From: Sphingobium indicum BiD32
Lineage (GTDB): Bacteria; Pseudomonadota; Alphaproteobacteria; Sphingomonadales; Sphingomonadaceae
DNA: 64,000 bases
Direction: 5' to 3'
Assembly (NCBI RefSeq): GCF_000382885.1
Contig: NZ_CAVK010000124.1
Location: 1-64,000 of the forward strand
The translations under genes and the position numbers were made by a program. Shown here piece after piece: positions 23,683-62,744 of the stretch; position 1 is the first letter of the stretch, and the number at the start of each line of letters is the position of its first letter. The notes below the pieces were generated by a model. The model was given only the letters and a program-made list of their open reading frames with translations. It did not search any database and had not been told where the DNA came from.

Positions 23683-23702
23683 ACCTGCCGCTTTTTACAG
23701 GT
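23683..23702. promoter_or_regulatory. Lux-box palindrome in the SDR pair/SnoaL divergent promoter
   Basis: ACCTGCCGCTTTTTACAGGT has perfect ACCTG/CAGGT half-sites with N10 between, and agrees with the classical lux box at 14 of 20 positions by my count. It is 51 bp upstream of the SnoaL start and 81 bp upstream of the SDR start. Confidence 0.52.
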
Positions 23703-23753
23703 TCGCGGTCATTCCCAAGCGCGCATCTAGGCTGGAACAGGAGAGCAATTGCC

Positions 23754-24173: not shown

Positions 24174-24187
24174 GGACAGGACGAGAC

Positions 24188-24967
24188 ATGGCTGATCTTT
24201 CGGGCAAGGTGGCGATCGTCACTGGCGGCACATCGGGTATCGGCCGCGCGACCGTCCAGCGGCTGGCGCGGGACGGGGCGCAGGTCGTGTTCACCGGATC
24301 GAACGAGGAATCGGCCCGCACCCTGTGCGCACAAAGCGGTGCGCGCTTCGTCAGGGCGCAGGTGCAGGACGAGGGCGACTGGGACAAGGTTGCCGCGTTC
24401 GTCAGCGACGAATTTGGTCGCCTCGACATCGCCTTTGCCAATGCCGGGACCGAAAGCGGGGACGGCAGCGTCGAATCGATCAGCATGGATGGTTGGGCCG
24501 GGATCATCGACGTCAACCAGACAGGGGTGATGCTGACCGCCCGCACGGCGCTGCGCCTGATGCGCGCAAATCCCGGCGGGCCGTGCGGGTCGATCATCAT
24601 CAATTCATCGATGTCGGCGCATAAGGTGATGGGCAACTACATGGCCTATTCCGTCACCAAGGCCGCCGTGCTGGCCATGGCCAAATCGATCGCCATCCAT
24701 TGCGCCACCGAAAAACTGCCGATCCGCTGTAACGCCATCCTGCCCGGCGTGGTGGAAACTGAAATGATCAGCGCGATCATCGCCAAATCTGCGTCGCCGG
24801 AAGGTGCGCGTGCCGCCTATAACAGCATGTCGCCGATGGGCCGGATGGGCACGGTCGAGGATATCGCCGCGCTGGTCGCCTTCCTCGCCTCCGACGAGGC
24901 CGGTTTCATCTCCGGCGCGGAATATGCCATCGACGGCGCATCGACGGCCGGGATGACCGGGGTCTGA
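24188..24967 (+). CDS. SDR-family oxidoreductase
   Basis: A 259-residue classical short-chain dehydrogenase. It has VAIVTGGTSGIGRATVQRLA (cofactor loop), LDIAFANAGTESGDGS (NAG motif), SIIINSSMSAHKVMGNYMAY with SVTKAAVLAM (Ser-Tyr-Lys) and IRCNAILPGVVETEM. The start at 24188 follows GAGGACAGGACG. It is the last gene of the catabolic cluster, after which a 404-bp gap precedes the giant exoprotein gene. No clear terminator is visible after its stop. Confidence 0.92.
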   Translation: MADLSGKVAIVTGGTSGIGRATVQRLARDGAQVVFTGSNEESARTLCAQSGARFVRAQVQDEGDWDKVAAFVSDEFGRLDIAFANAGTESGDGSVESISMDGWAGIIDVNQTGVMLTARTALRLMRANPGGPCGSIIINSSMSAHKVMGNYMAYSVTKAAVLAMAKSIAIHCATEKLPIRCNAILPGVVETEMISAIIAKSASPEGARAAYNSMSPMGRMGTVEDIAALVAFLASDEAGFISGAEYAIDGASTAGMTGV

Positions 24968-25371: not shown

Positions 25372-28300
25372 ATGGAGCACGACGTAAAGGCGCTTCGCAT
25401 TTTAGGCGATATCCTGGCCCGCGGTCGGCGCTCATTGGACAGATTGCCCGATGACTGGCGTATGCGCCGTCGGGCCGCGCTGCGAAATTCGTCCAGTCTG
25501 GCAAACCGGCTCCATTTCGAGGCGGTAGAGCCGCGCCTGTTGCTGGCGGCGGACGTGCCGCCGATCACCGGTACTATCGAAGTGCCGGGGGAAACCGATC
25601 GCTTCGCATTCACGTTGACCGAACCCAAGAAGGTGGTGTTCGATTCCCTTACCGCCACCAACAATATCTTCTGGGCACTGACCGACCAGAAGGGCAGCAT
25701 TGTCTCCAACCGCAATCTGGCGCAGTCGGATTCCTATGATTTTTCGGGCGGCAACATACTCGATCTGCAAGCTGGCGAATATACACTCAGCATTGATGGC
25801 CGGGCCGACGCGACCGGCAATTATGCATTCCGCCTGCTCGATCTCGCCAATGCCGATGTGTTTACGCCGGGAGACGTGGTCAACGGGCTGCACAAGGCGA
25901 ACGAAACCGCGCTCTACAAGTTCGACGCGCTGGCCGGGGACAGCTTTTTCTTCGATGCGCACAGCTACCCGGCTGAATCGACAGCGTGGCGGCTGGTCGG
26001 CCCGGACGGCGAATATGTTACAGGGCCAAATGCGTTCGACGATTCCGGTGCCTATCTGCTGAATCGTAGCGGTACGTACATGATGGAGATTGAGGGCCGG
26101 GTTTATAATTCAGCCACAGCCGACATCAGCTATTCCTTCACCTTCGGCAAGATTACGCAGACCAGCGCTGCCTTGACGATCAATGAGCGGGTGCAGGGCC
26201 GCCTCGCGACCGCGGGCAGCAGCACGGTGTTCGATTTCGACATCGCCAGCGACAGCAAGCTGCTGTTCGACAATCTGATACGCCGGGACAGCCTCAAATG
26301 GTCGCTGACCGGACCACGCGGCCAGGTGATCAACAACCGGAATTTCAACAGTTCGGATTCCTTCAATGGTGATCCGCTGCTCGATCTTGTCGCGGGACAG
26401 TATAAGCTGACGGTGTTTGCCGATGGCGACGCGACCGGTGACTTTGCCTTCCGTCTGCTCGATTTTTCGACGACGGCCACCGCGATCAGCGCAGGCGATA
26501 GTTTTGGCACGACCATCGAGGATGGTGGCGCGCTGGCCAATATTGCGCACGCCACGGGCGCGCCGCTCGATTATGCAGCGCAGGGCGGGACGATCAACCG
26601 CAGTTGGGATGTCGCCACGCTCGGCGAGCTTGAAGTCGCGAACGATGCGGCGCTCAATCCGGCGGCGATCACGGTCGAAGCATGGGTCAACGCACGCAGC
26701 GGCGGCGGCTTTTATCAGGGCATCGTCAGCAAGGTAAACGATACTGGATGGAGCAATGGCTACGGGCTGGTGCGTGTCGGGGGCAATGTCCGCTTCTTCG
26801 TCAACAACTGGAGCGATGGCTTTGTCGAGGCGCCGCTCGCGACGGATCAATGGAAGCATGTTGCTGGTGCCTATGACGGCACGACCTTGCAGCTTTATAT
26901 CGATGGCGCGCTGGTTGCCGAAAAGGCCTATGACGCGGCGATCAATCACAGCGCCAATGCGCTCAACATCGGTGCGGCACCGACCGGCAATTATCAGTTT
27001 GACGGGCAGGTTGACGATGTGCGCCTGTGGGGCATGGCGCGCAGCGCGGCCGATATCGCCAGCGGATACCAGCGCCCGTTGTCAGGCAGCGAGGGCGGCC
27101 TTGCGGGCTATTGGCGTTTTGACGAGGCGACCGGTCAGAGCGCTGCGGGTCTCGCACCGGGCGCTATGGCTGCCAGCGGTGTCCTGCGGCGCGGGACAGA
27201 GACAAAGCTGTTCCGGTTCGACGGGGTGGAGGACGACCATTATTTCTTCAACCTGCTGAGCGCGAGCAACAACCAGTATATCCGGGTCTATCGCCCCGAT
27301 GGCACCTTGCTGCTCAACGGATCGGGACTGGGCGATATCGACCTGGGGAAATTGCCCGAAACGGGCGAATATCTGATCGCAGTCGAAGGTTATCTCTACA
27401 ATCAGGGCAGTGCGGCCTTTACCGCAGAACTGCTCAAGGTTTCGGACGATGCTGCCGCGCTGACGCTGAACGCGCTGACCAGCGGGCGGATCGATACCGG
27501 AGAAGCCGATCGCTTCACATTCACGCTGAGTGAAGCAACGAAGCTCGCCTTTGATTCGCTGACGGCGAATTCTGCGCTGAGTTGGTCGCTGACCGGGCCG
27601 TTTGGCGCGGAAATCACCGATCGAAATTTCTACTATTCCGATTCAGCCGAGATCGACACCAATGGTAACCAGCTGCTCAACCTGGCGCCTGGCACATATA
27701 CGCTCACCGTCGATGGTGCCGGCGATACAGCTGCCGATTATCAGTTCCGCCTGCTCAATCTTGCAAGCGCAACCGCGCTGACACTGGGCGCAGAAACCTC
27801 CGGCAGGCTGGAGCCGGGCAATGAGACCGATATGTTCGCGTTCACCGGGCAAGAAGGCGATGCGATCACGGTCGAGCGGATTTCGAGCACGAATGCCAAT
27901 GCGTTCTGGCGGCTATATGATCCGCTGGGCCGTCTCGTCACATCCGCGCGCCAGTTCAATGACGCGGTGCCGCTCACGCTCGACTATGACGGAACCTATG
28001 TTCTGATGCTCGAAGGGCGGGTGTGGGAAGGTGCGCCGGTCGACTATGCGATCAAGGTCAGCCGCACCGGCAATACGGCGCCGCCCGACAGGGGCACGGG
28101 GACTGCGTTCACCCTCGGCGCGGCGGTCGGCGATACGCTGGGTGCCGCAGACGAAATCGATCTCCACAGCTTTACCATTGCGACACCCACGAGGGTCTAT
28201 TTCGACAGTCTGACGCCTGACACGGGAAAGTCATGGGCGCTGTTCGGTCCATCCGGGCGTATCACGCCGGATCGCCTCTTTTATTACACCGACAGTTTCG

Positions 28301-31300
28301 AGAATTACGCAAACACCTTTATCGATCTGACACAGCCGGGCGACTATCAGATTCGCGTGCAGGGCAGCACTGGCGCCTACAGCTTCCGTCTGCTTGATTT
28401 TGCAAGCGCCACGCCCGTCGCGGCGGATGGCAGCGTCACATCCTCCGCACTGACGCCAGTGCGTGAGACGGACATTTTCAGTTTTACCGCGAGCGCTGGC
28501 GAGGAAATCATCCTCGACGTGCGCGATTATCCAAATAGCGCAAGCTGGCGCATCTTTTCGAGCACCGGGCGGCAGGTATTTGGTCCTTCCGGCTTCGATT
28601 ATCACCAACTCACCATGCCCGCTTCGGACACCTATTATTTTGTCGTGGAGGGCCGTGTCTGGGATAGCAGCGCGTCCGACAATTATGGCTTCATCCTCAA
28701 TCGCCCGGCCGATCCCGCGCCGATCGATCTGACGCTGAATGACATCACGGAAGGCACCATCGCCAAGACAGGAGATATCCAGCGCTATCGCTTCACGGTC
28801 GATACGCAGAAGCTTGTGATTTTCGACAATTACAGCGCCGAGGTCTATCTCGAATGGGCGATGACCGGGCCGCAGACATCCGTTGGCAACCGCTTCTATT
28901 ATTCGGACAGCTACGAACAGCAGAACCGCACGCCGATGCTGTTGGAGGCAGGCGACTATGAGCTGGTGGTCCGGGGATCACAGCAGGTAGAAACCGGCGG
29001 GAGGACGCTGGGCGACTATAAGTTCCGCCTGCTTGACGCCGCCGCCGGGACATTGCTTGCGGTCGATGGTTCCAGCACGTCCGGCACGCTCGATCCGGGG
29101 CGGGAAACCGATGTTTATCGCTTCACGGCGGCAGCGGACGAGAAGATCTTTTTTGACGGGATTCAGGGTGCGGGCAATGGATCGCTCAAAATCCTCGATG
29201 CCTTCGGTCAGGTCGTTTACGGCCCTACCGACTTCCGTGATGCCGCCATAACCATGCCGCGCGCCGGCACCTATACATTGCTGGTGGAAGGGCGGCCCTG
29301 GGACAACACAGCAACAATAAACTATCAGTTTGCGCTGTCGCGGATCGAGGCGGACCCTGCTCCTATTGCGCTCAATCTTGGCGAGCGGACCACCGCGACC
29401 ATCGCCAAACCGACACAGAAGCAGCGTTATACATTCACGCTTACTGCGGCAAAATCCTTTTATTTTGACAGTTTTACGCCGGACAGCGAGATTTTCTGGA
29501 CCATTTCCAGCGCGGGGCTGAACCTTGTCAGCAGCAATTTCTACAGCACCGATTCCTACGAAAACAATGCCGACCGCATTTTCACGCTTCCCGCTGGCGA
29601 CTATGATCTGGATATTTCCGCCACCGCCGGAAAGACAGGCAGTGCCGAGTTCCGTTTGATCGACACGGCGTCCGCCACTGCGCTTACCTTCGGCCAGCCG
29701 GTTCGTTCCGACCTTACGCCGTTGCGCGAAACGGATGTTTACAGTTTTGAGGGGACGGCGGGCGAGACGATATTCTACCAGAATCTGCAAAGCCAGCCCA
29801 ACGCCTCTTTGCGGATTATCGATCCCGATGGCCTTCAGTTCGTCGGTCCGACGAACATGGACAACCGCGAGATCGTGCTGCCCAAGACAGGGCGTTATCT
29901 GATCCTGCTGGAAGGGCGGGTGTGGGATGCCAGCGCCAGTCAGAGTTATGGCTTTACCCTGCAAAAGCCGACCAACCCCACCCAGACCATCGCCATCGAC
30001 GGCACGACCAACGGGCTACTGACGCGCCCCGGCAAGATCGGCAACGCCCTTGCATTTTCCGCCCATGAGCAGATCCAGATCGTCGATCCCGCGCTTGACC
30101 TGCGGCAGGATGTGACGATCGAATTCTGGATCAATCCCGATCGGCAGGCGGACGCATGGTCGCCGATCGTTTACAAGGCCGATGATGCGGGACAACGCGG
30201 CTATTCCGTGTGGTTCAACTCCAGCGGCCTCATCCATTTTTCGAGTATGCGCGGCGCGTCAAACGACACGCTGGAGACGGCAAGCGGTGCGGTTCCCTAT
30301 GGCGAGTGGAGCCATGTCGCCGCGGTGCTGGAGCGCAGCACCGGTACGATGAAAATCTATATCAACGGTGCGCTGGCCGCCTCCCGCTCGGTCAGCACGG
30401 CGCTGTCGAACGGTTCGCCTGACACGCCCTTGATCGTCAGCGGCACCAGCGAATATAATGAGGCCTATCGCAAGTTCGAGGGCGGGCTGGACGAAGTGCG
30501 CGTCTGGAGCAGCGGGCGCACAGAGGCACAGATCGCCGCAAATATGGATGCGGGGGCGCCGACGGACACCACTGGCCTGGCATTGCGACTGGGTCTGGAT
30601 GCCGTGACGTCGGGGGCCGTGACAAATAGTGTCACCGGCGCGACGATCCCGGTTTTGCGTGACCTTGCAAACGTCAAGGGCGTGGTCGAAGGCCGTCTCA
30701 GCACGCCGGGCGACAAGCGGACCTATACATTCACCGTCGCCGAACGCACGACGATGCTGTTCGACAGTCTGCATGACAATGACCAGATGGTCGTTTCCGT
30801 CACCGGGCCGGGCGGTTTTTCGATATCGAACAATCTGCGCAACGGCGACAGTTACGAACTGGGCGGGAGCAACCCCGTTTTCACCGTCGAGCCGGGCACC
30901 TACACCATCCTGGTCGATGGCACGGGCGCCGCCACCGGAGCCTTCGCCTTCCGCTTGCTCGACTTGTCGGCGGCACCGCTGGTGCCCTTCGATACCGCGA
31001 TTTCGCAGACGGCAAGCGGTTCCTCGGAAAGCTATGCCTATCGCTTGGATGTCGATCCCGGCGACAACCTGCTGTTCGACGTCCAGCAGGTGACCAATTC
31101 GGGCAACAGGGTTTCGTATCGACTGATCGATCCTTATGGCCGCCAGATTTTCGGGCCGGTCGACTTTTCTTCGCGGGAAACCGGGGCATTGGCGATCGGC
31201 GGCGTCTATACGCTGATCGTCGAGCCGCGGGTCTGGCGCGAATGGCCGGTGGATTTCCGCTTCGCTGCATATAAGGTTGCGGCCACGCCGCCGGTGGCAA

Positions 31301-34300
31301 TCACGCTCGACGGCCCCAATCCCCAAGCGCCACAGATACAGCCTGGCAAGAGCGGCAATGCGCTTAGCCTGCGCGGGGTCGATTATGTCGAGGTGCCAAG
31401 CAGCCCGGAGGTATCGCCAACCCGCAATCTGACGGTCGAAGGCTGGTTCAAGCTCGACCGGTTCACCAACAGCTGGACGTCGCTGGTCGCCAAATCGACC
31501 CATGACACATCGCCCTATCGGATTGCGGTCAACGCCAACGGTTCGGTCTGGGCGGCTGTGCGCGATGCGTCCGGGGTGCAGTCGATCCAGACTGGCGGCG
31601 GCCTGATTGCCGCGGGTGAATGGGCGCATATCGCGCTGGTGGCCGACCGCGACGGCGGCGCGATGAAAATCCTCGTGAACGGCGTGGAGCAGGCGTCGGG
31701 GACAATCAGGATCAGCAACAATGCCGATGCTGGCGAGCCGCTGCTGATCGGCCAGTATGAGGAAGTCGAGACCAGCTACGGTCAGTGGGAAGGTGCGGTC
31801 GACAGCTTCCGCATCTGGGATGTTGCACGCAGCGAGGCCGATGTTGCCGCCGGCATGACAAGTCCGCCAATGGCGGGCACCAGTGGCCTCCTCTACGCGC
31901 TCGATTTTGAAAGTACGGCATTGAGCGGCGGCGCCCTGTTGCGCACCACCAACGCCAATGGTGTTTCCGGCCGCATCGCGCAGCCGGGCGAAAGCGATAT
32001 CTACAGCTTCAGCCTGACGGCCGAAACGCTCGTCATGCTGGACAGCCTGACGAATTCGGGCGACATCAACTGGACGCTGACCGGCCCGCAAGGCGAGATT
32101 GTGAGCGCCCGGCGCTTTAGCGACACCGACTCCGCCGATTTCACTGCGTCGCCCGTGCTGCGACTGGGTGCGGGGGACTATCAGCTGAAGATCGATGCGG
32201 TCGGCAGCGTGACTGGCAATTATAACTTCCGCCTGCGTGACCTTTCCCTGGGAACGCCCCTGACGCTCGGTTCACCGGTTTCGGGAACGCTCACTCCGAC
32301 GAGCGAGACCGACATTTATCGCTTCGCTGCCAATGCGGGGGAAACATTCTTCTTCGACGGTGGCACCGTCCATAACGACATGCGGTGGCGGCTGATCGAT
32401 CCGTTCGGCAATGAAATATTCGGTCCCAATACGATCGGCAATATCGACGGGCAGGAGCTTGCCATCACTGGCGTCTATTCGCTGCTGATAGAGGGACGAT
32501 CCTATACCGCCACGGTCGCCGACTATCAGTTCGGCGTCTATCCGATCACCACGCAGAGCGCGGCGCTCACCATCGGATCGCGTGTGGACGGATCGATCGG
32601 TACGGTGGGCGAAAGCGACGCCTACAGCTTCACGCTCGGCGCGGCCAGCAAGCTGGTGTTCGACGCCCTGACGACGGCGACAGTCTTTAACTGGACGTTG
32701 CGTGGGCCTGATGGTGTCGAGGTCAGCAGCCGCAATGTCCATGATTCCGATGGTTTTGATTTCGGCGGCAATCCGGTGCTCAGCCTTGGCGCGGGCAGCT
32801 ATACGCTGACGATCGATGCGACAGCGGAAAACACGGGCGATTACAGTTTCCGCCTGCTCGACATCGCATCTGCCGAGGAACTGGTGCCGGACGGGACGTT
32901 CAATCGCACAATCGGTCAGAATGGTCAGGAAACGGACATGTTCCGCTTTACCGCCACGACCGGTATGCGCTTTGGCTTTGATGTGATCAGCAATTCTTCC
33001 GGCAACAATAGCTGGCGGCTGATCGACCCGATGGGGCAGGTGGTTTTCGGCCCCGTGGGCCTTGGCGATACCGACCTGATGACGGCGGCGATGGCAGGCA
33101 CATATACCCTTCTGGTGGAAGGACGGCGTTCGGCGACCACGGATGGCAGCTACAGCTTCATCTACAATCAGCCCGCGATCCTGGCCGCAGGTGGCCAGAC
33201 CAGCCAGGATTTCGACGTGGCGGGCCTGCCCTATATATTGGGCAATCACCGCGGGGTGGCCGCGCAGGTGCTGGCCGATGGCGGGGACAACGTCATAAGG
33301 CTGACTGATTCCCTGCAAGTGAACAGCCAGAATTCAATCGCCTTCTCCGCCACCGGCAGCGGGCGACAGGATGTCGTCGATCTCGGTTTCGATTTCCGCC
33401 TGACCCGCCGCGCCGGCCAGACGGGAGATGCCGACGGCTTTGGCCTTCTATATTTGCCAGTCAGCCAATATGGCAATGGGGGGCCGGGCCTGCTGGTGAC
33501 GCCGGAGGCCAATCTAGCCGGTGCGCTGGGTATCGGTTTCGACACGCTGAGCAATGGCGAAGTCAACGCCAATCACATTTCCATCCATTATAATGGCGTC
33601 AAGCTGACCGACATCGCCGATCCCGGTCTGACGCTGGCCAGCGGTGATTGGGCGCGCGCGCGGCTAGTTGTGGAGCGGACCGATGGCGGATCGCTGGTCA
33701 CAATCGAACTCACGCCGGAAGGTGGCGCAACCATTGCCGTCGTCACCGATTTCTTCGTGGCGGGCATGGAGCTGGAGGCTGGACGTCTGGTACTGGGTGC
33801 CAGTCAGGGCAGTGCAACAGCCGATCAGGACTTTGACAATTTCGCGATCGCCATGACCGCTGCCGCGCAGCCGATGACGGCGCTGGCGCTCAACGATGCG
33901 GTCAGCGGTTCTATCGCTGCGGCTGGCGCGGTGCAGCGCTATGAATTTACGCTGACGGAAGAAACAGCGGTCGTTTTCGATGCGCTGACCAATAATAGCG
34001 CGCTGCGCTGGGAGATTAGCGGCCCGACCCAGACACCGGCCGCGCGTAGTTTCAACAGCACGGATTCTGCGGAATTTTCCGGCAATCCGGTCATGACGCT
34101 CGCGCCCGGCACGTATCGCGTCGCCATTTCAGCCACCGGCGCCAATACAGGCAGCTTCTCATTCCGCCTTGCTTCGCTGGCGGACGGCACAGCGATCAAC
34201 CTGAACGAAACGCAGGATCTCACGCTCACGCCCGGCAACCTGACGGAAATATACCGGTTCGATGCTTCCGCCGGACAATCTCTGTTTTTCGACCTGCTCA

Positions 34301-37300
34301 GCGGATCGAATGATCCCTTCTGGCGACTGATCGACCCGGCTGGCAATCTGGTTTTCAACACGACGCGGGTTGGGGATGTCGAGGAGCCGCTGTTACCGCT
34401 CGACGGCACCTACACGCTCCTGGTTGAAGGGCGCGTGGGCACGTCCGCGCCGCAGACTCTCAGTTTCCGTGTGGTCGATATGGTCGACAGCACCACGGCG
34501 CTGACGATCGGCGAAACAGTCAGCGGCACCATCGCCGCGTCAGGCGCGAAGGCACGCTACACCTTCAGCGTCAGCGATCCGCAATATCTGATATTCGACA
34601 GCCTGATCAACACGACCCAGATCGCATGGACGCTGACTGGCCCCTCCGGGACGATCCTTTCGCGCCATTTCCAGAATGCCGATGCCCATTCCGGCGCATC
34701 GCCCGGAGCGATCTTTTTCGAGCCGGGCGACTATGCCATCACGGTCGATGCCAATGATGATCTGACCGGTGATTTTGCCTTCCGCCTGCTCGATCTGGCG
34801 CTGGCGAGCGATCTTGTGCTCAACGCGCCGACCACCGGACGGCTGGAGCCGGGCAACAGCACCAATCTCTACAAATTCACCGGCGCTGTCGGTGACGAGA
34901 TATATTTCGATTTCATCTCCAGCCCCGGATCGGGCCAGTGGCGGCTGTTCGATCCCGATGGCCGGGTGGCGATGAGCGCCAACTACCGCACGGACACCGG
35001 CTTCATCACGCTTGAGAAGGCGGGCGTCTATACGCTGGCCTATGAAGGCCAGATCGGCGAAGGCGGACCGGTCGATTACCAGTTTCAGGTCGACAAGGTC
35101 GTGCACAAGAGCCGCACGATCGATCTGGGCGAGACGATCAGTTCGACGCTCGATCAACCCGGCCAGCGGGAGGATCTGCTTTTCACGTTGACCGAGGAAA
35201 CCCTGGTCTATGTCGATGCGCTGTCGCCGTTCGGCGATGTCAGCTGGCGGCTGACCGGCCCGGCCGGTGACTTCGCCGCGCTGCCCTTCACCCAGACGGA
35301 CAGTTACGATCGATCCAACGCCCAGGTGGTCTATCGTCTGCCCGCTGGCGATCATGTGCTGCGGATCGAAAGCGGCACGACGGCGGACCGGGACTATTCC
35401 ATCCGTTTGCAGAAGCTCTCTGATGCGCTGCCGATCACGCCGGGCGTGCCGGTCAATGGCACGCTCAGCCCCGGCTCCGAAACCGACATGTACCGGTTCG
35501 ACGGTGAGGCGGGCGACCGCTTCTTCTTCGACAGGCTCAGCTATGCGGGCGTGTCCACCCACTGGCGGCTGATCGCGCCCAACGGCAGGCAGCTATTTGC
35601 CGGTGACATGAACGATGTCGATACGCTCGTCCTTCCCGATAGCGGCTCCTATACGCTGCTGATCGAAGGCTATGTGCAACAGGCCGCATCGGTCGGGACC
35701 TATAGTTTCAACGTGATCGAAAATACTTTGATCGCGCCTATCCGCATTTCCTCGCTGGAAGTGCGGCCCTCGCCCGATCTCATCCCGATCGAGCTGGCGG
35801 TCAGCAGCAGCGGCACGATCAGTTCCGGCAGCGAGATCACCATCAGCTGGAAAACACGCAATCAGGGTACGCGTCCGACCAGTGGCGCGTGGCAGGACCG
35901 GGTGTTGTTGCGCAATCTGGATACCAACGAGATTATCGGCAACATCCTGCTGGATGACAGCGGCACGGTGATCACCGCGGAGGGGGAACGGCAGCGGCAA
36001 ACCACGCTTACGCTGCCCACGGGCAATCGCGGCGTAGGCCGGATCGGCGTGACGGTGACGAACGATGTCGCCAACACGATCGGCGAAGAAAATATCCTAG
36101 GCACGGCCGAAACCAACAATGCCGCGACGCTGGAGTTCACGTCGCAACTGGCCCCGTTCCGCGATCTCGTCGTTACCGATGTCGCAGCGGACCCGGCAGG
36201 TGGGTGGAACCCCGGCGATACCGTTACGGTCAACTGGACCACCACCAACGCGGGCAATAGCGCCACGGCGGCGGACTTCAGCGAACGCCTGTTCGTGCGC
36301 AACAGCCTGACGGGCCAGCAGGTGCAGGTCGCCACGGTCGGCTTTACCGGGACATTGGGCGCGGAGGCGGCGGCGCAACGGTCCGCGCAGATCATCTGGC
36401 CTGCCGGAATATTGGGGCAGGGTGTATTTGAATTTTCGGTGGTCACCGATATCTTCGACCAGGTCGCTGAGGCCAATACCGCCGCCACTGGCGAGACCAA
36501 CAACAGCACGGCGGAAACGATCACGTCCGCGCCCGATCTCCAGATACGCAATCTGGCCATCACCAACAGCGCGCCTGCTTCGGGCGATGTGATCACGCTG
36601 ACATGGGATGAAAGCAATCTGGGTAATGTCGGCACCCTTGCAGGGTTCGACAATCGCCTGCTGGTGCAGAATCTGACCACCGGCGAGACGCTGCTCAACA
36701 GCACGATCATCACGACCAGCGCTTTGGCGGCAGGGGAAAGCCGCGCCCGCACCACCAGCTTCACCCTGCCTGAAGGACAGCGGGCGGTTGGGGACATCCG
36801 GGTCACCATCATTGCCGACAGCAATGCGAACGGGCAGACGAGCGTGCGCGAGGCTGCCGCCGGGGTCGCGGCAGAGGGGAATAATAGCGCGCAAGCCGCG
36901 GTCGCCGTGACTGCCCGGCAATATGCAGATTTGCGCGTCAGCAATGTCAGTGCGCCGGCCAATGGACTGGGCGGGGGCAACATCACGGTCAGCTGGACCG
37001 TGACCAACGCCGGTGTGGCCACGGCGGACGGTGTTGCATGGACCGACCGGGTGATATTGAGCATCGATGCCATCATCGGCAACGCAGACGATGTCATACT
37101 CGGCAATATCGCCCGAAACGGCGCGCTGGCCGAGGGGGGCAGCTATAATGGTTCGGGTACGCTGGCCCTGCCGAACGTGAATTCGGGCGATTATCGCATC
37201 TTTGTGGTGGCCGACGCGGCGCAGGACATTGTCGAACCCGATACGCGGGCAGACAATGTCGGTGGCCCCGCAAACGTCGCGATTACCAGCCGCGCACCCA

Positions 37301-40300
37301 ATCTGGTGACGGAGGCCATATCCGGCCCGACTGCCACCGTGCTGGGCGGCGATCCCTTCACGGTTTCATGGCGGGTGCGCAACACTGGTGACGCCGCCGC
37401 TGCGGGCGGTCATGTCGATCGGCTTGTGCTGTCGGCCGATGGGGTCGCCGATGCGGATGACCTGATTCTGGCCGAAGTTTCGCGCGATGCCGGACTGGCA
37501 ATAGGCGACAGCTATACCGTATCCGTTCAGGCGCGTGTGCAGGACGGACGCAGCGGCGATTATCGCCTGATATTGGTGACCGATGCCGGAAGCACGGTGT
37601 TTGAAAACGGGCTTGAAGGCGACAATGCCGGTGTCTCGGCTCCTGTCCGTTTCGCGGTTGCGCCGTCAGGCAATCTGGTCGTCGAAAGCGTCACCGCGCC
37701 TGCGGGCGCACGACCGGGCGAAACGGTAGAGGTCAGCTACATCATCCGCAACAGCGGCACGGTGACGGCGAGTGCGCCCTGGGCCGATCGCATCTATGTG
37801 GATGATGACACGACCGTTTCCGGCGCCACTACGCTTGCCAGCGTCGTCCGCACATTCGATCTGGCACCGGGCGAGGCCTATGAGGTGCATCAGTCGGTCA
37901 CATTGCCCGTGAGCCTGGCCGATGGCACATATAATATCCTTGTCCGCGCCGATGTTGGCCAGCAAGTGTTTGAAGGCGGCATAGAGGCGGACAATGACGG
38001 CGCGTCGGGCGCGCTTACGCTGACCCACCCCGATCTGGTGCCGATCAACGTTACACTGCCGGGCGGCGTCAATCCGCAATCGAACAGCGACATTGCCATG
38101 ACGTGGCAGATCCGCAACGATGGGACAGGGGCCAGCATTGGTGGCTGGACGGACAGCCTCTGGTTATCGCGCGATGGCATCGTCGGTGCCGGGGACATCA
38201 AACTGGGCGAAGTCGTGCGCGGATCGAGCCTGGGCGTCGGCGAAGTTTACGACGGCGCGCTCACGGTCCATCTGCCGATTGATGCTTCGGGTGAATATCG
38301 CATCATCGTGCAGAGCGACAGCACAGCCGCTGTGCCCGAAACCAGTGCGGGCGAAACCAACAATAATGCCTCTGTCGCACTCACCGTCGGCCTTGCGCCT
38401 TATGCCGATCTGGACGTCAGCAACGTCACCGCACCAGCCCGCACGATCAATGATCCCGCGCGCGTCACTGTCGGCTGGACGGTCACCAATATCGGCACCG
38501 GGCTGGGGACCGCCGATAGCTGGACAGACCGCGTCTATGTGTCGCGCGATGAGATATTCGGCGATGGCGATGACATATTGCTGGGTGAACTGGTACATTC
38601 TGGCGGGTTGGCACTGGGCGAAAGCTATGACGCCAACCTTGATCTGATCCTGCCCGCCGGATTCTACGGTCGCTATACCCTGTTCGTCCGTTCAGACGCG
38701 ACAGAGACGGTGTTCGAGAACGGTTCGGATGCCAACCGCACCGCTCTGGCGGGCTTCTTCGATGTGTCGCCCATTGCCTGGGCGGATCTGCAGATCGAAA
38801 GCGTGGTCGCGCCCACATTGGCGCAATCGGGCACGTCCATCGATGTGACATGGCGGGAAAGCAATCAGGGCATCGGCCTGACCAACACCGGCGAATGGTT
38901 CGACAGCGTCTACCTGGAGAGGACCGATGGCAGTGGCCGGATATTGCTTGGTTCGGTCAACCATCTCGGTTTCCTTGGGGTGGGGGACAGTTATGACCGC
39001 ACCGCCAACTTCACTCTGCCCGATGGGATAGCGGGAGACTATCGCATCGTCGTGGTCGCGCCGGGCGGCGACGATCCACGCAATCAGCCCTATGAATTTG
39101 CCTTTACCGGCAACAATAGCGGCACATCCGCCCCGATCAGCATCTCGCTTGCGCCGCCACCCGATCTTCGCGTCACGGCCATCTCCGCTCCGGCAAATGG
39201 CGTAGAGGGCGGCGTGGTCGACATTAGCTGGACGGTGAAGAATGAAGGGCTGAGCGCGGCCGAAGGCAGTTGGGTGGACAAGGTCTATCTGCGCAAGGCG
39301 GGCGACAGCGGCGCGGGTACGCTGATCGGCACCTATAGCTATACCGGCCCGCTGGCGGCGGGCACCAGCTATACAAGGCGTGAGGAAATGCGTCTGCCGG
39401 CCAAAACCAGCGACCGGTTCGAGGTAATTGTCGTCACTGATGCGGCCGACGCCGTTTACGAACATACGGCCGAGACTAACAATCGCTCGGTCGATGATGA
39501 GTCCATCCTGGTATCTGTACTGCCGCGCCCCGATTTGCAGATCAGCGAAATCATTGCGCCTGACACCGTGACAGCAGGTGCCACCGCCTCCGTCGATTTC
39601 ACCGTGATCAATCAGGGGCTGATCGAAGCCAATGGCAACTGGACCGATCAGGTCTGGCTGTCGCTGGATGACAAGATCAGCGGCGACGACATTCTCGTGT
39701 CGCAGCTGGCCAATCCGATCGCGCTGGATTCGCTGGAAAGCTATGAGTCGAGTTCGGCGACATTCACGGTGCCATTGCGGTTCCGGGGCAATGTTTTCGT
39801 GCTGGTGGCCACGGATACCGGCAATGCCGTCGACGAATGGCCCAACGACACGTCGGCCAGCAACGTGCGCGCGCAGCAGATTTATGTCGAACCGGTGCCG
39901 TTTGCCGATCTCGTCGTCGACAATGTCGTCACCAATGCCCAGGCGTTCGAGGGCAACAGCGTGCCGGTGCGCTATACCGTGACCAATCGTGGCGCGGGCA
40001 CCAGCAATCTTGGTCAGTGGACCGAGCAGATCTGGCTGACCAGGGACAAGAACCGGCCGCACCCCGGTCTGGGCGACATATTGCTGACCAGTCTTACCTA
40101 CACTGGCGGCCCGCTGGAGGAAGGGCAGGGCTATGATCGCGAACTGACTGTCACCCTGCCTGCCAGCGTGGTTTCCGGCACCTATTATATCATGCCCTGG
40201 GTCGATCCCTATGCGACGTTGCTGGAGGATTCGCTGGCGATCAACGTCAATCCCGATGATCCGGCCGAAATCCAGAGCAGCAATTATCGTGCCCGCGCGA

Positions 40301-49300: not shown

Positions 49301-52300
49301 CTACGATCGAGCCTGTGCCGCCCGTGGTCCGCCTGGAACTGACGCCCAGCTTCCCGGCCGCGCCGGGGCAAAATGTGCTTATCCACGCCGTGGCGGATAG
49401 CCTGGCGGACATCACATCCTTGCGCGTTCTGCTCGACGGGCAGGAAGTGCTGCTCGATGCTAACGGGCGGGCAACGATAGTCGCCGGTTCGCCCGGCAAA
49501 TATATTTTCACCGTTACAGCGCGCGACGCAGACGGTGGTGAAAAGACGATTACGCAAATCCTTAAAGTGCGCGATCCGCTCGACAAGAGCGCGCCCAGCG
49601 CGCTGTTTGACGGAACTATTGACGACGCGATCGTCACCTCGACCCTGGCGATCACCGGGACCATCGACGACAGCAATCTCGACGGCTGGACGCTGCAATT
49701 GATTGACGGGCAGGGCGATGTCACCCTGCTGGGCGAAGGCGGCACTAACCTCACTGCTACGCTCGCGACGCTGGACGGGCGCAGCCTGGCTGACGGATTC
49801 TATCGTCTTCGGCTGACCGCCACCGACATTTCCGGCCGGACCAGCGTGGACAGCGCCACGATCGAACTGCGCACGGGCGCGGACAAAATATCCCGCTATA
49901 CGACGCAGCATGTCGATATCTCGACCGTGCTGGGCGGCGTGCCGTTCGATCTTGTCCGGGCCTATGACAGCATTACGGGCAAATGGACGTTCCTTGGCCT
50001 CGACGCTGATATCGTCACCAGCGTCGGGAGCCAGCCCAGCGCAGGCGGCGCGCTGCCTGCGTTCGAGATTGGCACGCGATTGTTCCTGACCTTGCCCACC
50101 GGCGAACGGGCGGGCTTCACCTTCAACCCTGTCGAGGAGATCATCGGCGGGCAGACCTTCTACCGCCCCGCCTGGACGGCCGACGGCACACATGGCTGGC
50201 AGTTCAGCTCGATCGATGTCCAGCTTCGCAAGATTGGCGGCAAATTCTACGATGTGGATAGCGGGGCGGCCTACAACCCCGGTTCACCGGTGTTCGGCGA
50301 CCGTGACTATGCCCTGCGTGCGCCTGACGGGACGATCTATATCCTCGACAGCCAGCGCGGTACGGTCGAAATTCAAAAGGCCGAGGGAAAGCTGCTGATC
50401 GGCGACAGCGGCGTCACTGCGCTGGGCGGCGATGCGCTGCGCTTCCTGCATGACGCGCGGGGCAATGTTACCCAGGTCACCGATGCAACAGGCAAGGCAA
50501 GCATCTATAGCTGGGACGATGACAACCGGCTGACCGCATTGCGCGATCTCGTGACCGGGGCGGGCGTTCGCTACGGCTATGTCGATGGGCTGCTGGCACT
50601 TGAAGTACCTTCATCGGGTGCAGGCAAACGGATCGTCTATAATGGCGACGGCACTGTGGTGACGGAAGCGATTGTCGCTGATCTGGCTACCCCGGCGGTA
50701 TTCACTGGTCAGGCGGTATCGGGAAATCTGGGTGCGGGCGGCGCGGAAAGCTTTGCCTTCACGCTGCGCGAAAGCGAACTGGAAGGGCTGCCCAACACAT
50801 TCGTCATTCTGAGGGTCGAAACCAGCGGCACGGTGACGCCCCAGATTGCAGGGTTAACCCTTCTGGCGAGTGCGCAGGCCGGTGGCAAACTTGTGACCCT
50901 GTTCGCGCTGTCCACATCGGGTCTGCACGAGTTGAGGATCTCTGGCAGTGGCGCCTATTCCTTCGAGATGCGCGCTGCGGGCGATATCAATGGCGACGCG
51001 AAGGTCGATGGACTGGACAGCGCCGCCGTGGTCGCGGCTCTCGCCGGATCGGATGTCAGTGGCGATGGCGTGACGGACGCGATCGACAATCAGATCGTCG
51101 CCGCCAACTATGGTTTCCGTGCAAACCAGTCGCCGGTGATCGCAGCCACGATTCCGCCGGAAAAAACCCATGTCGACTTGCAGCGTTATGTCGATCTGAC
51201 CAAGCTGGCGACCGATCCGGATGGCGACAGTCTCTATTTCCGGATCGTCGGGGCGACTGGCGGAACGGCCGCTCTTGCCGCCGACGGGCTTGGCGTCCTT
51301 TTCACGCCGACGGCGGGTTATTCGGGCGCGGCGTCTATCCGTTTTTCGGCCGATGACGGTTTTGGCAGTTCGGCCGAAGGCGTGATCGACATCAACGTGT
51401 CCGATGCCGCCTTGTTGTCCTTGAATTTCGCACTGCGCCAGCCTGCCTTTGCGGCACCGGGCGAAAGTGGCGGCGTGGGCCTTGTCGGTCAGTTTGCCGA
51501 TCAAGCGGATGTTGCGCTGCCCTATTCCTATGTGACGGCGAGCGTCGGCCATCCCGACATCGTCCGTTTGGGCACGGATGGGACATTATTGGCTCTGGCC
51601 CAGGGATCTACTTATCTGAAGGTCTCACGCGGCAACATTGCGGCGGCTACGTCACTGACGGTTGGCGAACCGAACAGCGTGCGTGAGTTGATGACGCAGA
51701 TTTACGGGATCGACGCCTATCCCGATAGCGTGACCCTGCTGCCCAGCGGCGGTTCGCGCGCAATCATCACCAGTCTTGACCTGACCGAGGAAACCTTTGC
51801 CAATGGAGCGGCGGCGGGGACCGTTTATGTATCCGCCGACAGCGCCATTGTCACGGTGGACGAAAATGGGCTGATGCGCGGTGTCGGGGCCGGATCGACC
51901 TTTGTGACCGTGATCAATGGATTCAGCGAAGACCGGGTGATGGTCACTGTAGCGCCGCCGGTCATAGGGGATGATGTTGCGGTCAATGGCGCTGCGGGTG
52001 CCATCGTACAGAATGCCGATGGCGTCCAGATCGCCTTTGGACCGGGCGCGCTGAGCGGCAATGCCACGGTCACGATCGATACGCTGACGGAAGCTGAACT
52101 GCCCATCGTCATGCCGACGACCGATGCGTTCCATTTCCTCAGCGCATTCGACCTGCAGGTCGACGGGGCGGAATTCAACGATACGGTGCAGATCGCGGTG
52201 CCGGTAGCGGGCAATCCGGGCGATCAGGTCTGGTTCTTTGCCAGCGTTGATTTGCCTGTCGGACCAAATGGCGAAAATATTCCGGTCTGGACCGTCATCG

Positions 52301-55300: not shown

Positions 55301-58300
55301 GCCATTCACGCGGCACGGTCGTCAATAGCGAGATCATCCAGCGGCTTGGCTATTATGGCCGGGTCACCAGCGGCATCCATATGACGACGCTGGACCCACA
55401 TGATTTCGTCCAGGCTTCGCTGGATATTCCGGTCAATACCCTGCTGAACATTGCCAAGGCATATAGCAGTTTCAAATCGCTGGCGCTGGCCGTGCGTTCT
55501 GTCGCCACTGCTGTCGGTGCCGTCAGTTCGGCCGTGGGTTCTGGTGGCCTTACGCTGGTGGCGACAGGGGCTATCCTGGGCGGCGTCGGCAAGGGCATGG
55601 TCGAGGCGGCCGGTGCCGCCAAGATGGCGTTCCGTATTCAGAAATTTCAGGATCTGGCGCAGACACTGGGCGTCCAACTTGATCCGGTGAAGTTCGGCGA
55701 TTTCCTCGATCCCGACGTCAAGCTGTGGTCGAACGTCAGTTTCAGCGACAATTATTATCAGGATGCGGCCTCGCAGACCTTCACGACGGCCACGCCCAAC
55801 GGGCGCGATATCGGCCCGACTGATATCTCGCGATATCTGGGCGGTGTGGTCCCCGGCGTGTCCGGATTCAATCTGGACGATTTCGCCGGGTTGGGGGCAG
55901 GTGGCCCGCACAGCCGTGTCTGGCAATGGTATGCCGGCACGATCGACACCAACATGACCAAATTCCAGGGGCTGGATATCTATCGGCGTATCACCGACGA
56001 TGGCATTCGACCCAAGGTGTTCGGCCTGCCTTCGCTCGATCAATGGAATATGGAGCCCTGGTATTTTGTCGATCCGGGCAAGGTGACAAGCCCCAGCATG
56101 TCGGTGCGGATCGGTGCGGCAAGCCAGATGGTCACCGGCAACACGACGTCCACGACCCATTTCAATATTACAGACGGCGTCGGCACCGGCTGGTTCTATT
56201 CCGTCGCGGGCGGTGGTGCGGATTTCCGGCCGATCATCAGCGGTGGCGAGGTTGACGTGACCACCGACAATAGCGAGGCACCCAATCCTGGCGGGGCCGC
56301 CGTACAGAGCATCTACAACGGTAATTTCGAGCAGGGCACACGCGAATCGCTCAACGTCCATCTGGAGCGCATCGCGACCGGCGAACTGGCTGACGATGCC
56401 GGGCGCTTCCCGATTTCCTACGAAATTCCTGGCTTCGCATTCCATGGCGGGCAGGGGTTCAAGCTTGATCTGCTCGGCCTGCCTGACGCGGATGCCATCG
56501 GCAAAATAGATGTTGCCGCCCTGTTCATGGTTAACACCAATCCCCAAGCCCTGATCAAGAAGGTGCTAGTCAAGATCTGGGAGGATTTCTTCGACAGTCA
56601 GGTCAGCCTGGCCAACCAGATCACGATCGGCAACTTCAAGCTGCCGACGCTGAGCTTTGTGGAGGCGAAGCTGGCCGCAAAGGTCATCGGCTGGGCCGGC
56701 TTCGATGCCGGTAAAAAAATCGACATGGTCAACAAATATTTCAAGGCGACCAACAAGGTGTTTACGGCCGCCGGAATGGCGACTGAGGCGCTCAATGACG
56801 GGCTGAACACGCTGGTCGAAAGTACCGGCGTCACCATGTCATTGGGAGCCGACACGCAGGATGAGGCCGGTCTGAACCGCTTGAAGGCCTATGTCTCAAA
56901 CGCGATCGAAAATGGCTTCGACAAGCTGTTCCCCAATCAGGACAATTATTCGCTGATCATGGGGGCGAGCGCTGCCCTGACCAAGATCATCGATTCCTTC
57001 CTGCCCGATGGCGACATCTGGGAAGCCATCAAGATGGAGACGCGAAGGATATTGCCGGGACTGGATTCGATCACCCACAATTTCGTCTATGTGCCGAAGG
57101 ATCAGCCCTATCTGACCTTCAAGGTGTACAAGCCCTATATGTTGCAACCCGGCGCGAAAATTCGCGTGCGTTTTGAAGGTGCCGGACTGCCAACAGTCGA
57201 TGCACTGGTCGCCAATCAGGAGGCGGGTGCGCGGCAGGTCGATCTGGGCACCGGGATGTTCACGTCCAGCGAATTTTCGGTCATCGTTCCCGATGAGTAT
57301 AAGGGCCGCTCGGCGACGATCACGATCACCCATGAAAATATGGCACCGACTGCGGAGGACAAGCAGGATCTGGAGGACGCGGCATTCATCGACGTAATTA
57401 CCAACGCCGCCAAGGATCTGGGTACTGCGGTCAGCCAGATATATCTGCTCGACGACCTCCGCTTCACGACAGTCGCGGCGATGAATGGCGTCATGCCCGG
57501 CTCGCCGCAGGTTGCGGCCGAAGGCGTCGCAATCACACCCGCCGCTCCGGCCGTCACGCTGGAACAGCTTGCCAGTCTGGTCGATGATGCGCGGCTCGCC
57601 TGGATGGCTGCGGGGATCAGCGACAGCGACGCACAGAAATTGGCAGATCTGGAATTCGCTATAACCGACCATCAGGATGCGGCGCTGGCCGTTCATTCAG
57701 GCAATGTCATCACGATTGATGCGGATGGTGCCGGACGTGGCTGGTTCGTCGATATCACGCCAAACGGGGCGAGCGAGTTCCTGACGTCGGGCGGCCGGCT
57801 GATCGCCATCGACGGCAGCGCGGCGGCGGGGCGGTACGACCTGTTGACCGTGCTGATCCACGAAATGGGCCATGAACTTGGCCTGTCGGAATTGCCGACC
57901 ACGACTGTGGGCAGGGTGATGAATGAAGCGCTGGGCCTGGGCGAGCGGCGCTTGCCCGGCCTGACCGATCTGCCGGTAGTGCCGGTCGCAGCGCCTGTGG
58001 CAGGGGCGGTTCGCACTGTCACGCTGACTGGGACAGGCAGTCCGGCGTCCGCTCTGGCCGCCGTGGCGCCGTTTGCCTTGGCCGTGCCGGGAACGGCAGC
58101 GACCGCCCCGTTCCAAAATGGTGATTTCGGCGCGGCGACGGGCTGGTCGCCAGTCGGGGGTGGCGTGGTTTCCGGCGGCCTGGGCGTGCTTGCCGAGGAC
58201 AGCCGTTTCCTGTCCTCGCTCAACCAGAAATTCGTCCTGCCCAATGGCGCGACGGAGATTAGTTTCCAGATTCGTTCCGCAGCTTTGGGCGCGAACAGCG

Positions 58301-61300
58301 CGCTGCCGCCCGATGCATTTGAAGTGGCGTTGCTCGATCCGGTTACCGGCCAGTCGCTGCTGGGCGAACTGGACGGGCTGGACCTGTCCGACGCCCTGCT
58401 CAACCTGCAAGCCGATGGATCGCTCTACCTTGCCCCCGGCGTGACCGTGACTGGCGATCCGTTGACCGGCACCGCGACAGTAACCGTCTCGCTTGCTGGG
58501 ATTGACCGCAGCAATGGCGCGTTGCTCTCCTTCGATCTCATTGCGATGGGCGATCTCGACAGCCGTGTGACCATCGACAATATCATGTTCGAGGCCGTAG
58601 CGAACAACGCGCCGGTGGCTACCAATGACAGCGGCAGCGGGGACGAAGATCAGGACATCGTCATCGATCTGCTGGCCAATGACAATGATGCCGATGGCGA
58701 TCTGTTGAGTGTCGCGATCCTGAGCGGCCCGGCAAATGGTACGCTCATCCCGCCGACCGTGACGGGTGGCGCATGGACCTATCGCCCGGATGCGAATTTC
58801 GCGGGAGCGGACAGCTTTACCTACAGCATCACCGACGGCCTCAGCGCGCCGGTGTCGGCCAGCGTCGCTATCACCGTGAATGCCGTCAACGACCTGCCGG
58901 CACTTGCTGTCGTGCAGGATCGCAGCGCGGTGCAGGGCAGCTTCGTCACGCTCAGTCTACTGGGCAGTGACGTAGAGGATATTGCATCCGATCTGACCTA
59001 CGAACTCGTCTCCGGCCCCGCCGGTGCCAGCGTCAACGCTTCGGGCCTGCTAAGCTGGACAGCTGGCCTGCCTGGTATCGAGAATTTCACCGTCCGCGTT
59101 ACCGACCGCGACGGCGGAACGGCCGAACGCAGCTTTGCGATCACTGTCGTGGTGCCGGGAAATGCCGCGCCTGCCTTTGCCGCGCTGCCGGACCGTGACG
59201 TCAATGCGGGATCGCTGTTCACGCTTCAGCTGGCTGCAAGCGATGACGATGATACCGCAGGAGAGCTGACCTATACGCTGATCTCAGGGCCGGGCGGCGC
59301 GACGCTCTCGCCCACTGGCGAGCTGCGCTGGATAGCGACAGGAAGCGGCTCCAGCCAGGTGACGGTGCGCGTCACCGATCCCGATGGTGCGTTCGACCAG
59401 CGGAGTTTCGCCCTGAACGTCGTGCCGGTCGTCGGCAACACTGCGCCGACGCTGCCCGTTCTTGACGATATTGCAATTGAAAGCGGCAAGCTGCTCATCC
59501 TGCCGATCACGGCCAGCGACAATGAAGATGTCGCCGAAGCCCTGACCTATTCGCTGGTGAGTGGCCCTGAGGGTGCTGCCATTTCGGCCAGCGGCCTGTT
59601 CAGCTGGCAGGCGGGCGATCCCGGTCCCCAGAGCGTGACCGTGCGCGTCACCGATACCGGCGGATTGATTGCCGAACGCAGCTTTGCGATCATCGTGTCC
59701 AACCCGGCACCTGCGTTCGCTGCGATACCCGATCGTTCGGTACAGACAGGCGGCGATGTCGCGATCACGCTTTCTGCCAGCGACAGCAACCATGCCGTAG
59801 CGCAGTTGGTCTATTCGCTGGTCAGCGGTCCGGCTGGGGCAAATGTGACGAGCGATGGCCAGTTCAGCTGGACGGCCGCCGGTCTAGGCAATCAGCCGGT
59901 GGTCGTTCGCGTAACCGACCCGCTGGGAGCCTTCGCAGAAACCAGTTTCAATATCGAGGTGACGAACGTCGCGCCGGTATTCGTTGCGATACCCGATCGT
60001 TCGGTACAGACAGGCGGCAATGTCGCGATCACGCTTTCTGCCAGCGACAGCAACCATGCCGCAGCGCAATTGGTCTATTCGCTGGTCAACGGTCCGGCGG
60101 GGGCAAATGTGACGAGCGATGGCCAGTTCAGCTGGACGGCCGCCGGTCTAGGCAATCAGCCGGTGGTCGTTCGCGTAACCGATCCGCTGGGGGCCTTCGC
60201 AGAAACCAGCTTCAATATCGAGGTGACGAACATCGCGCCGGTGTTGGCGGCGGTTGGCCCGATCAGGGTGAATGAAGGCAGCGCGCTTTCGTTGCAGCTT
60301 GTGGCAAGCGACGGTGACGATGCGGTTGGCGATCTGATATTCTCGCTGGTCTCCGGGCCTGCTGGGGCTACGCTGACGGACAGCGGGGTGCTGAACTGGT
60401 TGCCTGCCGATGGCGGCGCGGATGCAGTCTTTACCGTCCGCGTGACGGATCCCCATGGTGCCCAGGCTGAGCAAAGCTTCAATGTCGCGGTGACCGATGT
60501 TGCACCAATCCTCAGCGTATCGGGCCTGAGCACGGTGCTGACCGGCAAGACCTATACCATCGCGCTGGGATCGAGCGATCCAGGTGACGATAGCCCGATC
60601 GAATGGGTCATCGACTGGGGTGACGGCACGGCGTCAACTTCGGTGGCAGGCGGTGCCAGTGCGGCGAGCCATATATATGCGGATGATGGCAATTTCCTGG
60701 TCAGCGCGCGCTTGCGCAATGACGATGGCAGCTTCTCGGCATCGCCCATCAGCCTTGTCGTCAACGATCCGCCGCTGTTACGGTTGACACTCGCGGGCTT
60801 TGTCGATGGCGGACTTGTCGTGCGCGTTTCCGAACCGCTTGATGCTCTGGCGGGCAGCCAGGCAGTGCAACTCACCGACAGCAGTGGCAATGCGATTGCT
60901 CTCACACTCGGCTTTGCGACAGATGGGCTGGGCTTCACGCTCACGCGCGCCGATGGCAGGTCGCTGCAATATGGCAGCTATGACCTGATCATCGCCGACG
61001 GCGCATTCATCAGCGCCGATGGCTCGGTACTGGACGGCAATAATGATGGCCTGATCGGCGGTGCCTATCAAACCAGCCTGACCTTCAGCCAGTCCATGGC
61101 GGGCAGCGCGCGCCTGCCCGACTTCATGCGCGGGCCGGGCGAGCATGTCGATGTCCCGCTCGCCGATGATGCCGGGTTGAAAGTCAGCTTCGCCAGCCAG
61201 GGCGGCGTCAAGACCATGATGTTTACAGTGATGTACGATCCCGCACTGCTGCGCGTCGATGGCGTGTTGCCGGGGGCCGATCTGCCTGCGGGGGCGAGCC

Positions 61301-62600: not shown

Positions 62601-62744
62601 AGATGAGGTCGGCAGAAATGGTGATGGCGACCAGACACGCTTTTGCGTCTATTGTCGCAGCGCCCGTTCGGCTGGCCAACGGGTGGGGAGGCACCAGATG
62701 ATGAGGCGAAAGATAGTTTCGGGGGCCATGATAATTTGAGAGCC

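Follow-up and report, generated by a model that had tools for sequence, protein, structure and literature searches.

The window analysed here, the first 64,000 nucleotides of contig NZ_CAVK010000124.1 of Sphingobium indicum BiD32, contains a giant gene whose product is a member of the previously known family of LEPR-XLL giant exoproteins. The genes immediately behind it encode a DUF3467 protein, an adaptor with GAF and HlyD parts (GAF-HlyD), an M50 membrane metalloprotease fused to PqqD-like and HlyD parts (PqqD-M50-HlyD), a truncated SecA-like ATPase (short SecA) and a TolC-family channel. The giant protein is probably exported, and we put at about two in three the probability that these genes encode a dedicated export machine with the giant as its cargo. 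The proposed link between cargo and machine is the new contribution and appears well supported by genomics; its mechanism, comprising export, leader binding and cleavage, SecA drive, surface retention, adhesion and hydrolysis, is one that we infer from sequence. Many LEPR-XLL giants exceed 10,000 residues, and the link would supply a cargo for the machine and a leader for the cargo. The broader proposal, that of a distinct Gram-negative secretion system for giant proteins in which a truncated SecA takes the place of the ABC motor and the PqqD-M50-HlyD protein reads and removes the LEPR-XLL leader, seems to us evenly balanced. If true, it would represent a SecA-driven route across both membranes, using an N-terminal leader as opposed to the C-terminal signal of type I secretion.

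The candidate machine and its relation to known loci

A locus with a second SecA_DEAD protein, M50-HlyD, GAF-HlyD and sometimes an OEP was described by Kamneva, Poudel and Ward 2015 (PMC4452313) and predicted to be secretion-related, with SecA proposed as the ATPase in place of an ABC transporter and the M50 helices as the pore. The locus studied here has the same traits (a second DEAD SecA without wing and scaffold, adjacent M50-HlyD and GAF-HlyD). It is also known from Planctomycetota and Verrucomicrobiota. In the main text of PMC4452313 the broader role of the secondary SecA locus is called 'completely unknown', no cargo was found to be named, and the terms giant, LEPR, DUF3467 and PqqD do not occur; the cargo link suggests a job for this secretion-like cluster. 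In Methylobacterium extorquens AM1, the 15,831-residue repeat-rich exoprotein META1_2412 is encoded in the island META1_2402-2415 (Vuilleumier et al. 2009, PMC2680597), and the SecA locus comprises META1p2399-2402 (PMC4452313). Most genes of that locus were silent, or almost so, during exponential growth according to PMC4452313. META1_2412 resembles our giant in being a huge repeat-rich exoprotein close to a SecA locus, and the available text of PMC2680597 leaves the genes unconnected. The description of the LEPR-XLL family (NF012209, 'LEPR-8K') names no export route, whereas at our locus a candidate machine goes with the motif. No link between LEPR-XLL or giant exoproteins and the secondary SecA locus was found in the open-licence literature (one may exist elsewhere), nor was a later role for that locus or an export route for LEPR-XLL giants found there.

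In the proposed pathway, the PqqD-like part of the PqqD-M50-HlyD protein would bind the basic LEPR-XLL leader and the M50 part would cleave it near LLxA/D, because the active-site motifs HELGH and NPxxRFDG are intact, a weak PqqD match is present, and the best named relatives process peptide leaders. The best NCBIfam match of this protein (141.6 bits, cut-off 300) starts in its N-terminal PqqD region, and its relatives carry the name 'PqqD family' in public annotation. An M50-type HExxH is common to this protein and to the leader-processing proteases of ribosomally synthesised and post-translationally modified peptides (daptide and YydH/LiaK; NF041824, NF058609), although here an HlyD part is fused and the proposed cargo is a giant, not a small peptide. 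Neither the M50 nor the DUF3467 protein matched PDB sequences.

The short SecA would drive the unfolded chain, since its GEGKT and DEAD motifs are intact. It matches PF07517 with 324 bits and aligns with Bacillus SecA over residues 32-552 of the latter only; no SecA_SW was found at an E-value of 0.01. Judged by the usual domain borders, scaffold, wing and finger are missing from it, while the preprotein domain and the two nucleotide-binding domains are kept. A separate SecA frame of 934 codons is located elsewhere in the genome. The GAF-HlyD adaptor and the HlyD part of the protease may span the periplasm and TolC may conduct the chain outward, while DUF3467 is a possible cytosolic chaperone or adaptor. 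Outside the cell, the repeats would act as a stalk, the LamG and hydrolase-like domains as working heads, and the C-terminal cysteine pair might retain the tail at the surface.

Conservation of the gene set

The order giant, DUF3467, adaptor, M50, SecA is found here, in Pseudosulfitobacter, in Mesorhizobium (with one extra adaptor frame) and in Pontibrevibacter. On the Pseudosulfitobacter plasmid the giant has 12,737 codons, and the genes for DUF3467, the adaptor, the PqqD protein and the translocase come after it in this order. Similar runs occur on annotated plasmids of Mesorhizobium, Methylosinus (uninterrupted, TolC included), Alisedimentitalea (without a listed DUF3467) and Pontibrevibacter; the fourth gene is variously named on plasmids, and its identity as SecA comes from our own score-based scan, not from annotation. 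The same gene order recurs in genomes of this class and, elsewhere in the phylum, of other classes, in many cases without intervening genes. Thirteen plasmid records match the M50 protein with a length coverage of 99% or more and an identity above 35%. Among them are all eight alphaproteobacterial plasmids of the 22 records that were found with 1,250 residues from the C-terminal part of the giant. Among 31 loci picked by the M50 family (21 genome regions, nine plasmids and the locus itself), the short SecA (at least 300 bits) stands at the module in 27 and GAF-HlyD in 29, and a LEPR-type giant lies on the same stretch in 15 of the 21 genome regions.

Co-occurrence of leader, protease and short SecA

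LEPR-XLL was found over the cut-off in 54 genomes of a sample of 398 Pseudomonadota. The M50-HlyD counts in this sample are among the matches listed, with at most two candidates scored per genome, and second copies are undercounted. An M50-HlyD or adaptor match is present in at least 103 genomes: in 52 of the 54 with LEPR versus 51 of the 344 without (14 of these 51 adaptor-only). By M50 class, LEPR is present in 35 of 37 genomes with full-length M50, 17 of 52 with the weaker class and two of the remaining 309 (Fisher approximately 1e-33, genome relatedness ignored). Of the LEPR frames with 1000 codons or more (n=66), 30 have an M50-HlyD gene no more than 10 kb away and 36 have one on their contig. 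Within Sphingobium, LEPR and M50 occur in the identical two of 37 genomes, and so does the extra TolC (two of 38).

The short SecA follows the full-length M50 protein: it is present in 34 of these 37 genomes (fragmentary or divergent in three of them, G404, G501 and G446) versus three of 60 genomes without it (0/23 and 3/37; G470, G586 and G590). LEPR frames have a median of 6,372 codons in genomes with short SecA (n=45) and of 3,246 codons in those that lack it (n=21; p=1.9e-4, with no control for lineage); frames below 1000 codons were dropped, which removes G590 (with SecA), and frames cut by contig ends were included. Longer frames in the presence of SecA fit a motor for long chains, despite the long LEPR frames of G452 (8,407 codons) and G531 (7,165 codons), both without short SecA.

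Two leader types and two machine types

The N-terminus of the giant scores 31.7 bits against NF012209 (cut-off 17), or 23.1 bits in a piecewise scan, and the protein shares with LEPR-XLL proteins the N-terminal motif, the size and the repeat-rich exoprotein character. The leader consists of a basic part followed by merely a few hydrophobic residues. Two kinds of leader were found to accompany two kinds of machine. Full-length M50 machines (class A) are linked, with few exceptions, to leaders of the form LEPRxxLS[AG][DE], and weaker M50 machines (class B) to LEPRxx[FYL]D[AG]A. At residue 8, Ser is found in 19 of the 22 leaders linked to class A and Asp in all 13 linked to class B. The class A exceptions are Ala in the leader of our own giant, Asn in G566 and Asp in G689. 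Counted as linked were also G566, G689 and G718, at 10-16 kb from the machine, and the leader on contig C1 of G455, which lies beside a short SecA alone; those of G580 and G617 are not NF012209 matches and were identified by eye. Six unlinked leaders were excluded from the test (G505, G565 and G110 with Asp 8; G455 C25, G495 C115 and the second of G459 with Ser 8), and all six agree with the class of their own genome.

This is the outcome predicted if the machine recognises the leader. In the broader proposal, the two coexisting types, LSAD/E (mostly with SecA) and FDGA/DAA (lacking it), would be sister systems, and the recruitment of SecA would have served the longest chains. The weaker M50-HlyD matches were rejected as unrelated controls, being the second LEPR-linked class, and serve as a contrast for SecA only. 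The class B loci L116-L121, L104, L106 and L108 contain no SecA; they encode HlyD adaptors and an M50-HlyD protein of the weaker kind, and those of their leaders that were read are of the FDGA/DAA type.

Several observations weigh against a dedicated machine of this composition. The match between leader and machine could arise from co-inheritance within an operon, with no recognition involved. The PqqD match of the fusion protein (19.8 bits) is below the Pfam cut-off of 23.4. Two of the 37 full-length-M50 genomes have no LEPR match, and 30 of the 66 LEPR frames are on contigs without an M50 match, many of the genomes being fragmented. In the 31 M50-chosen loci, DUF3467 was detected in 18 and TolC in nine, within the fetched stretch and at the score limits used. 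At five modules the stretch retrieved contains no LEPR gene: in G712, G467, G458 and G404 it is on another contig, and in G718 a haemagglutinin-type exoprotein adjoins the module and the LEPR giant is about 15 kb off. In a further region (G482) a contig end interrupts the stretch and no LEPR giant lies on it. Thalassospira marina has an annotated LEPR-XLL protein, TolC and the module, with SecA missing beside it. Finally, the short SecA is missing from three genomes with a class A machine (G452, G606 and G743) and from all 12 class-B-only genomes tested; SecA is therefore dispensable in some LEPR systems.

As a separate observation, made by eye, exoproteins with a haemagglutinin-type (two-partner-like) N-terminus are located near the LEPR module in G718, G449, G455, G498, G544 and G533 (regions L067, L068, L075, L076, L085 and L086).

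Alternative explanations

One possible explanation is that the ordinary Sec translocon and housekeeping SecA handle the leader and that the M50-HlyD and SecA-like proteins come into play afterwards, as processing or quality-control factors. The LLxA-D sequence resembles, as we understand it, a signal peptidase site, a SecA frame of at least 887 codons was matched in 59 of 60 genomes (for G605 there was none among the matches listed), and some LEPR systems do without the short SecA. However, no hydrophobic core like that of a signal peptide was found in 16 leaders using a simple hydropathy window (top 15-residue mean 1.55), and the short SecA is bound to the module as described above, which makes this explanation unlikely.

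It is slightly less probable that our protein belongs to the classical type I (ABC-HlyD-TolC) adhesins and that the SecA/M50 module has another job. Giant adhesins of this type, such as SiiE and LapA, have Ig-like repeats, HlyD and TolC, an ABC ATPase and a C-terminal signal; in the system proposed here, a SecA-like ATPase, an M50 protein and an N-terminal motif would stand in place of the latter two. HlyD and TolC families are common to type I systems and this locus, and G581 has genes of ABC, HlyD and TolC type some 5 kb downstream, which likewise count against a dedicated machine. A Vibrio LEPR-XLL protein has been reported with RTX and serralysin-like C-terminal domains (PMC10868602). The giant itself, in contrast, has no RTX or type I C-terminal family in Pfam and NCBIfam scans. 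Pfam scans of the genes at 62298-70172 revealed no ABC family, and none is annotated inside the gene run at six plasmid loci, two of which have importer-type ABC genes several kb downstream. A pattern scan of the same genes was likewise empty but is insensitive, as the ABC-exporter pattern overlooks importer-type ATPases and missed annotated ABC ATPases in L129 and L016.

A shared ride on mobile islands with no functional tie, which would agree with the patchy presence in Sphingobium, the 13 plasmid copies of full-length M50 and an integrase gene adjoining the region, is very improbable given the recurrence of the same order, often gene to gene, across the class and other classes of the phylum and the coupling of a different leader with a different machine in class B. 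A two-partner secretion exoprotein was also considered and rejected, as the giant has no haemagglutination-activity N-terminal family in Pfam and NCBIfam scans.

The giant gene

The sequence-only reading of the window had suggested a single intact 36.9-kb gene; it mentioned neither the LEPR-XLL leader nor the export-type genes that come after, which are the more telling part. Translation of positions 25372-62301 yields 12,309 residues with no internal stops. An alternative in-frame GTG is present upstream at 25234; the ATG at 25372 was taken as the start because it has a counterpart in the orthologue of Sphingobium sp. AS12 (MEQDVK). This orthologue (G036:C67) is a stop-free frame of 12,442 codons, 95.0% identical to the giant at the amino-acid level, with nonsynonymous divergence (dN) 0.025, synonymous divergence (dS) 0.358 and dN/dS 0.071 over 12,309 aligned codons. 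The only gap is an 88-residue insertion in AS12, about one repeat in length, in Ig-like block 2. In windows of 400 codons dN/dS is 0.02-0.12, except for the final 309 residues (0.27, relaxed); identity is highest at residues 5601-6400 (98-99%) and dN/dS lowest at residues 6001-6400 (0.020). Two further orthologous stretches were found, in S. xenophagum NBRC 107872 and the metagenome-assembled genome nzgw535. The frame is a genuine gene under purifying selection, and chance or an assembly error, which could have refuted the earlier reading, is excluded because an independent genome carries the intact orthologous frame.

The same reading ranked the protein among the largest in bacteria. Within its own family a size of 12,309 residues is unremarkable, as LEPR-XLL frames of 14,920, 15,251, 15,434 and 19,427 codons are present in the 398-genome sample. 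The longest (G495:C115:112865, leader read) exceeds the 15,831 residues reported for META1_2412. In G588 (L054, L055 and L094) a frame of 8,444 codons runs antisense to a giant gene of 8,456 codons, which is probably an effect of base composition.

Domain architecture of the giant protein

Features of the giant and of the genes behind it are listed in Table 1. Profile hidden Markov models (HMMs) iterated on the protein gave 24 half-repeats, 17 CARDB, 17 Ig-like and three LamG domains, bearing out the previously counted 12 A/B repeats and 17 CARDB domains and raising the Ig-like count from 'about 15'. The half-repeats match PPC (PF04151) below the cut-off only. Two propellers had also been claimed; in a Pfam scan alone, no family was found in those regions at an E-value of 0.01. 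A structure model of residues 5814-6493 was unusable (predicted local distance difference test, pLDDT, 35.4).

The hydrolase-like region contains the motifs FIGHSRG, DPH and GGPHSR, and the expected triad was recovered: S9979, D10008 and H10180, which presumably constitute a catalytic triad, are invariant in four orthologues and are matched in relatives from two phyla, Pseudosulfitobacter and four cyanobacterial giants (GFSRG in the latter). The region has no Pfam match and nothing convincing among PDB sequences, and its structure model (pLDDT 33.5) was unusable. The four cyanobacterial giants are encoded on plasmids (L135-L138) and share the hydrolase-like domain; three of them also have the matrixin-like module.

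Of the protease-like motif, the HExxH is real, but the third zinc ligand position is occupied by Glu instead of His, both here and in AS12. An intact M10 metallopeptidase was therefore rejected, the HExxHxxGxxH zinc site being incomplete (HEMGHELGLSE), and the module may be inactive in this protein. The third ligand is His in relatives from Rhizobium, Sinorhizobium, Ensifer and Mesorhizobium, and Pseudosulfitobacter has HEMGN. No convincing PDB sequence match was found for this module.

The two C-terminal cysteines are 17 residues apart, and AS12 has both at equal distances from the end despite the relaxed tail. The domains and the conserved Ser-Asp-His residues fit the previously suggested fibre, a secreted multidomain protein that bears binding heads and a hydrolase-like domain; the protease part of that suggestion is weakened.

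Table 1. Positions of the LEPR-XLL giant gene, its protein features and the genes behind it (contig numbering equals window numbering; the window ends at 64000)
Feature	Position	Strand	Basis or remark
Giant LEPR-XLL exoprotein gene	25372..62301	+	12,309 aa, 1,299 kDa, isoelectric point 4.35
LEPR-XLL N-terminal motif HFEAVEPRLLLAAD, proposed export leader	25510..25578	+	NF012209
A/B half-repeats, 12 A + 12 B, mutually homologous, residues 65-3446	25564..35709	+	iterated HMM
LamG-like domain 1, residues 431-578	26662..27105	+	PF13385; iterated HMM
LamG-like domain 2, residues 1573-1741	30088..30594	+	Pfam; iterated HMM
LamG-like domain 3, residues 2012-2178	31405..31905	+	Pfam; iterated HMM
CARDB domains, n=17, residues 3476-5646	35797..42309	+	PF07705; iterated HMM
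Region of residues 5814-6493, single weak sub-cut-off family match, overlapping the highest-identity stretch	42811..44850	+	Pfam
Ig-like block 1, 9 He_PIG/cadherin-like repeats	46717..49266	+	Pfam; iterated HMM
Single RHS/YD repeat, residues 8360-8392	50449..50547	+	Pfam, NCBIfam
Alpha/beta-hydrolase-like domain with S9979, D10008, H10180	54934..56391	+	motif residues
Matrixin-like module, motif at residues 10830-10840	57544..58011	+	motif; iterated HMM
Ig-like block 2, 7 repeats (site of the AS12 insertion)	58636..60453	+	iterated HMM
PKD domain	60499..60732	+	PF18911
Cohesin-like domain	61177..61452	+	slightly under Pfam cut-off (23.2 vs 24.1 bits)
C-terminal Cys pair, 12248 and 12265	62113..62166	+	sole two Cys among 12,309 residues
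DUF3467 protein, 100 aa	62298..62600	+	PF11950, 70.4 bits
GAF-HlyD adaptor, 643 aa (start codon uncertain)	62643..64574	+	runs past the window end
PqqD-M50-HlyD fusion, 717 aa	64582..66735	+	beyond the window
Truncated SecA-like ATPase, 683 aa (start codon uncertain)	66728..68779	+	beyond the window
Extra TolC-family channel	68823..70172	-	beyond the window, convergent

Neighbouring genes

The start of the DUF3467 gene overlaps the stop codon of the giant gene (ATGA). A minus-strand gene at 62649-63995 was rejected as downstream neighbour, the plus strand holding the GAF-HlyD frame. The TolC of the locus is 44-45% identical to other TolC copies of the same genome and 96% to that of AS12, and the remaining 36 Sphingobium genomes searched have copies at no more than 47%.

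Upstream of the giant, the region 18945-24967 of the window encodes several short-chain dehydrogenase/reductase (SDR) oxidoreductases, two SnoaL-like proteins and an acyl-CoA ligase; it looks like a catabolic cluster and is collinear in AS12. Collinearity with AS12 extends from 14569 to 71510 of the contig, ending within a tRNA-Glu of AS12 (L019:9186-9260); in the present genome a phage-type integrase gene follows at 71630, and an integrative element may be inserted in the tRNA-Glu beside the locus.

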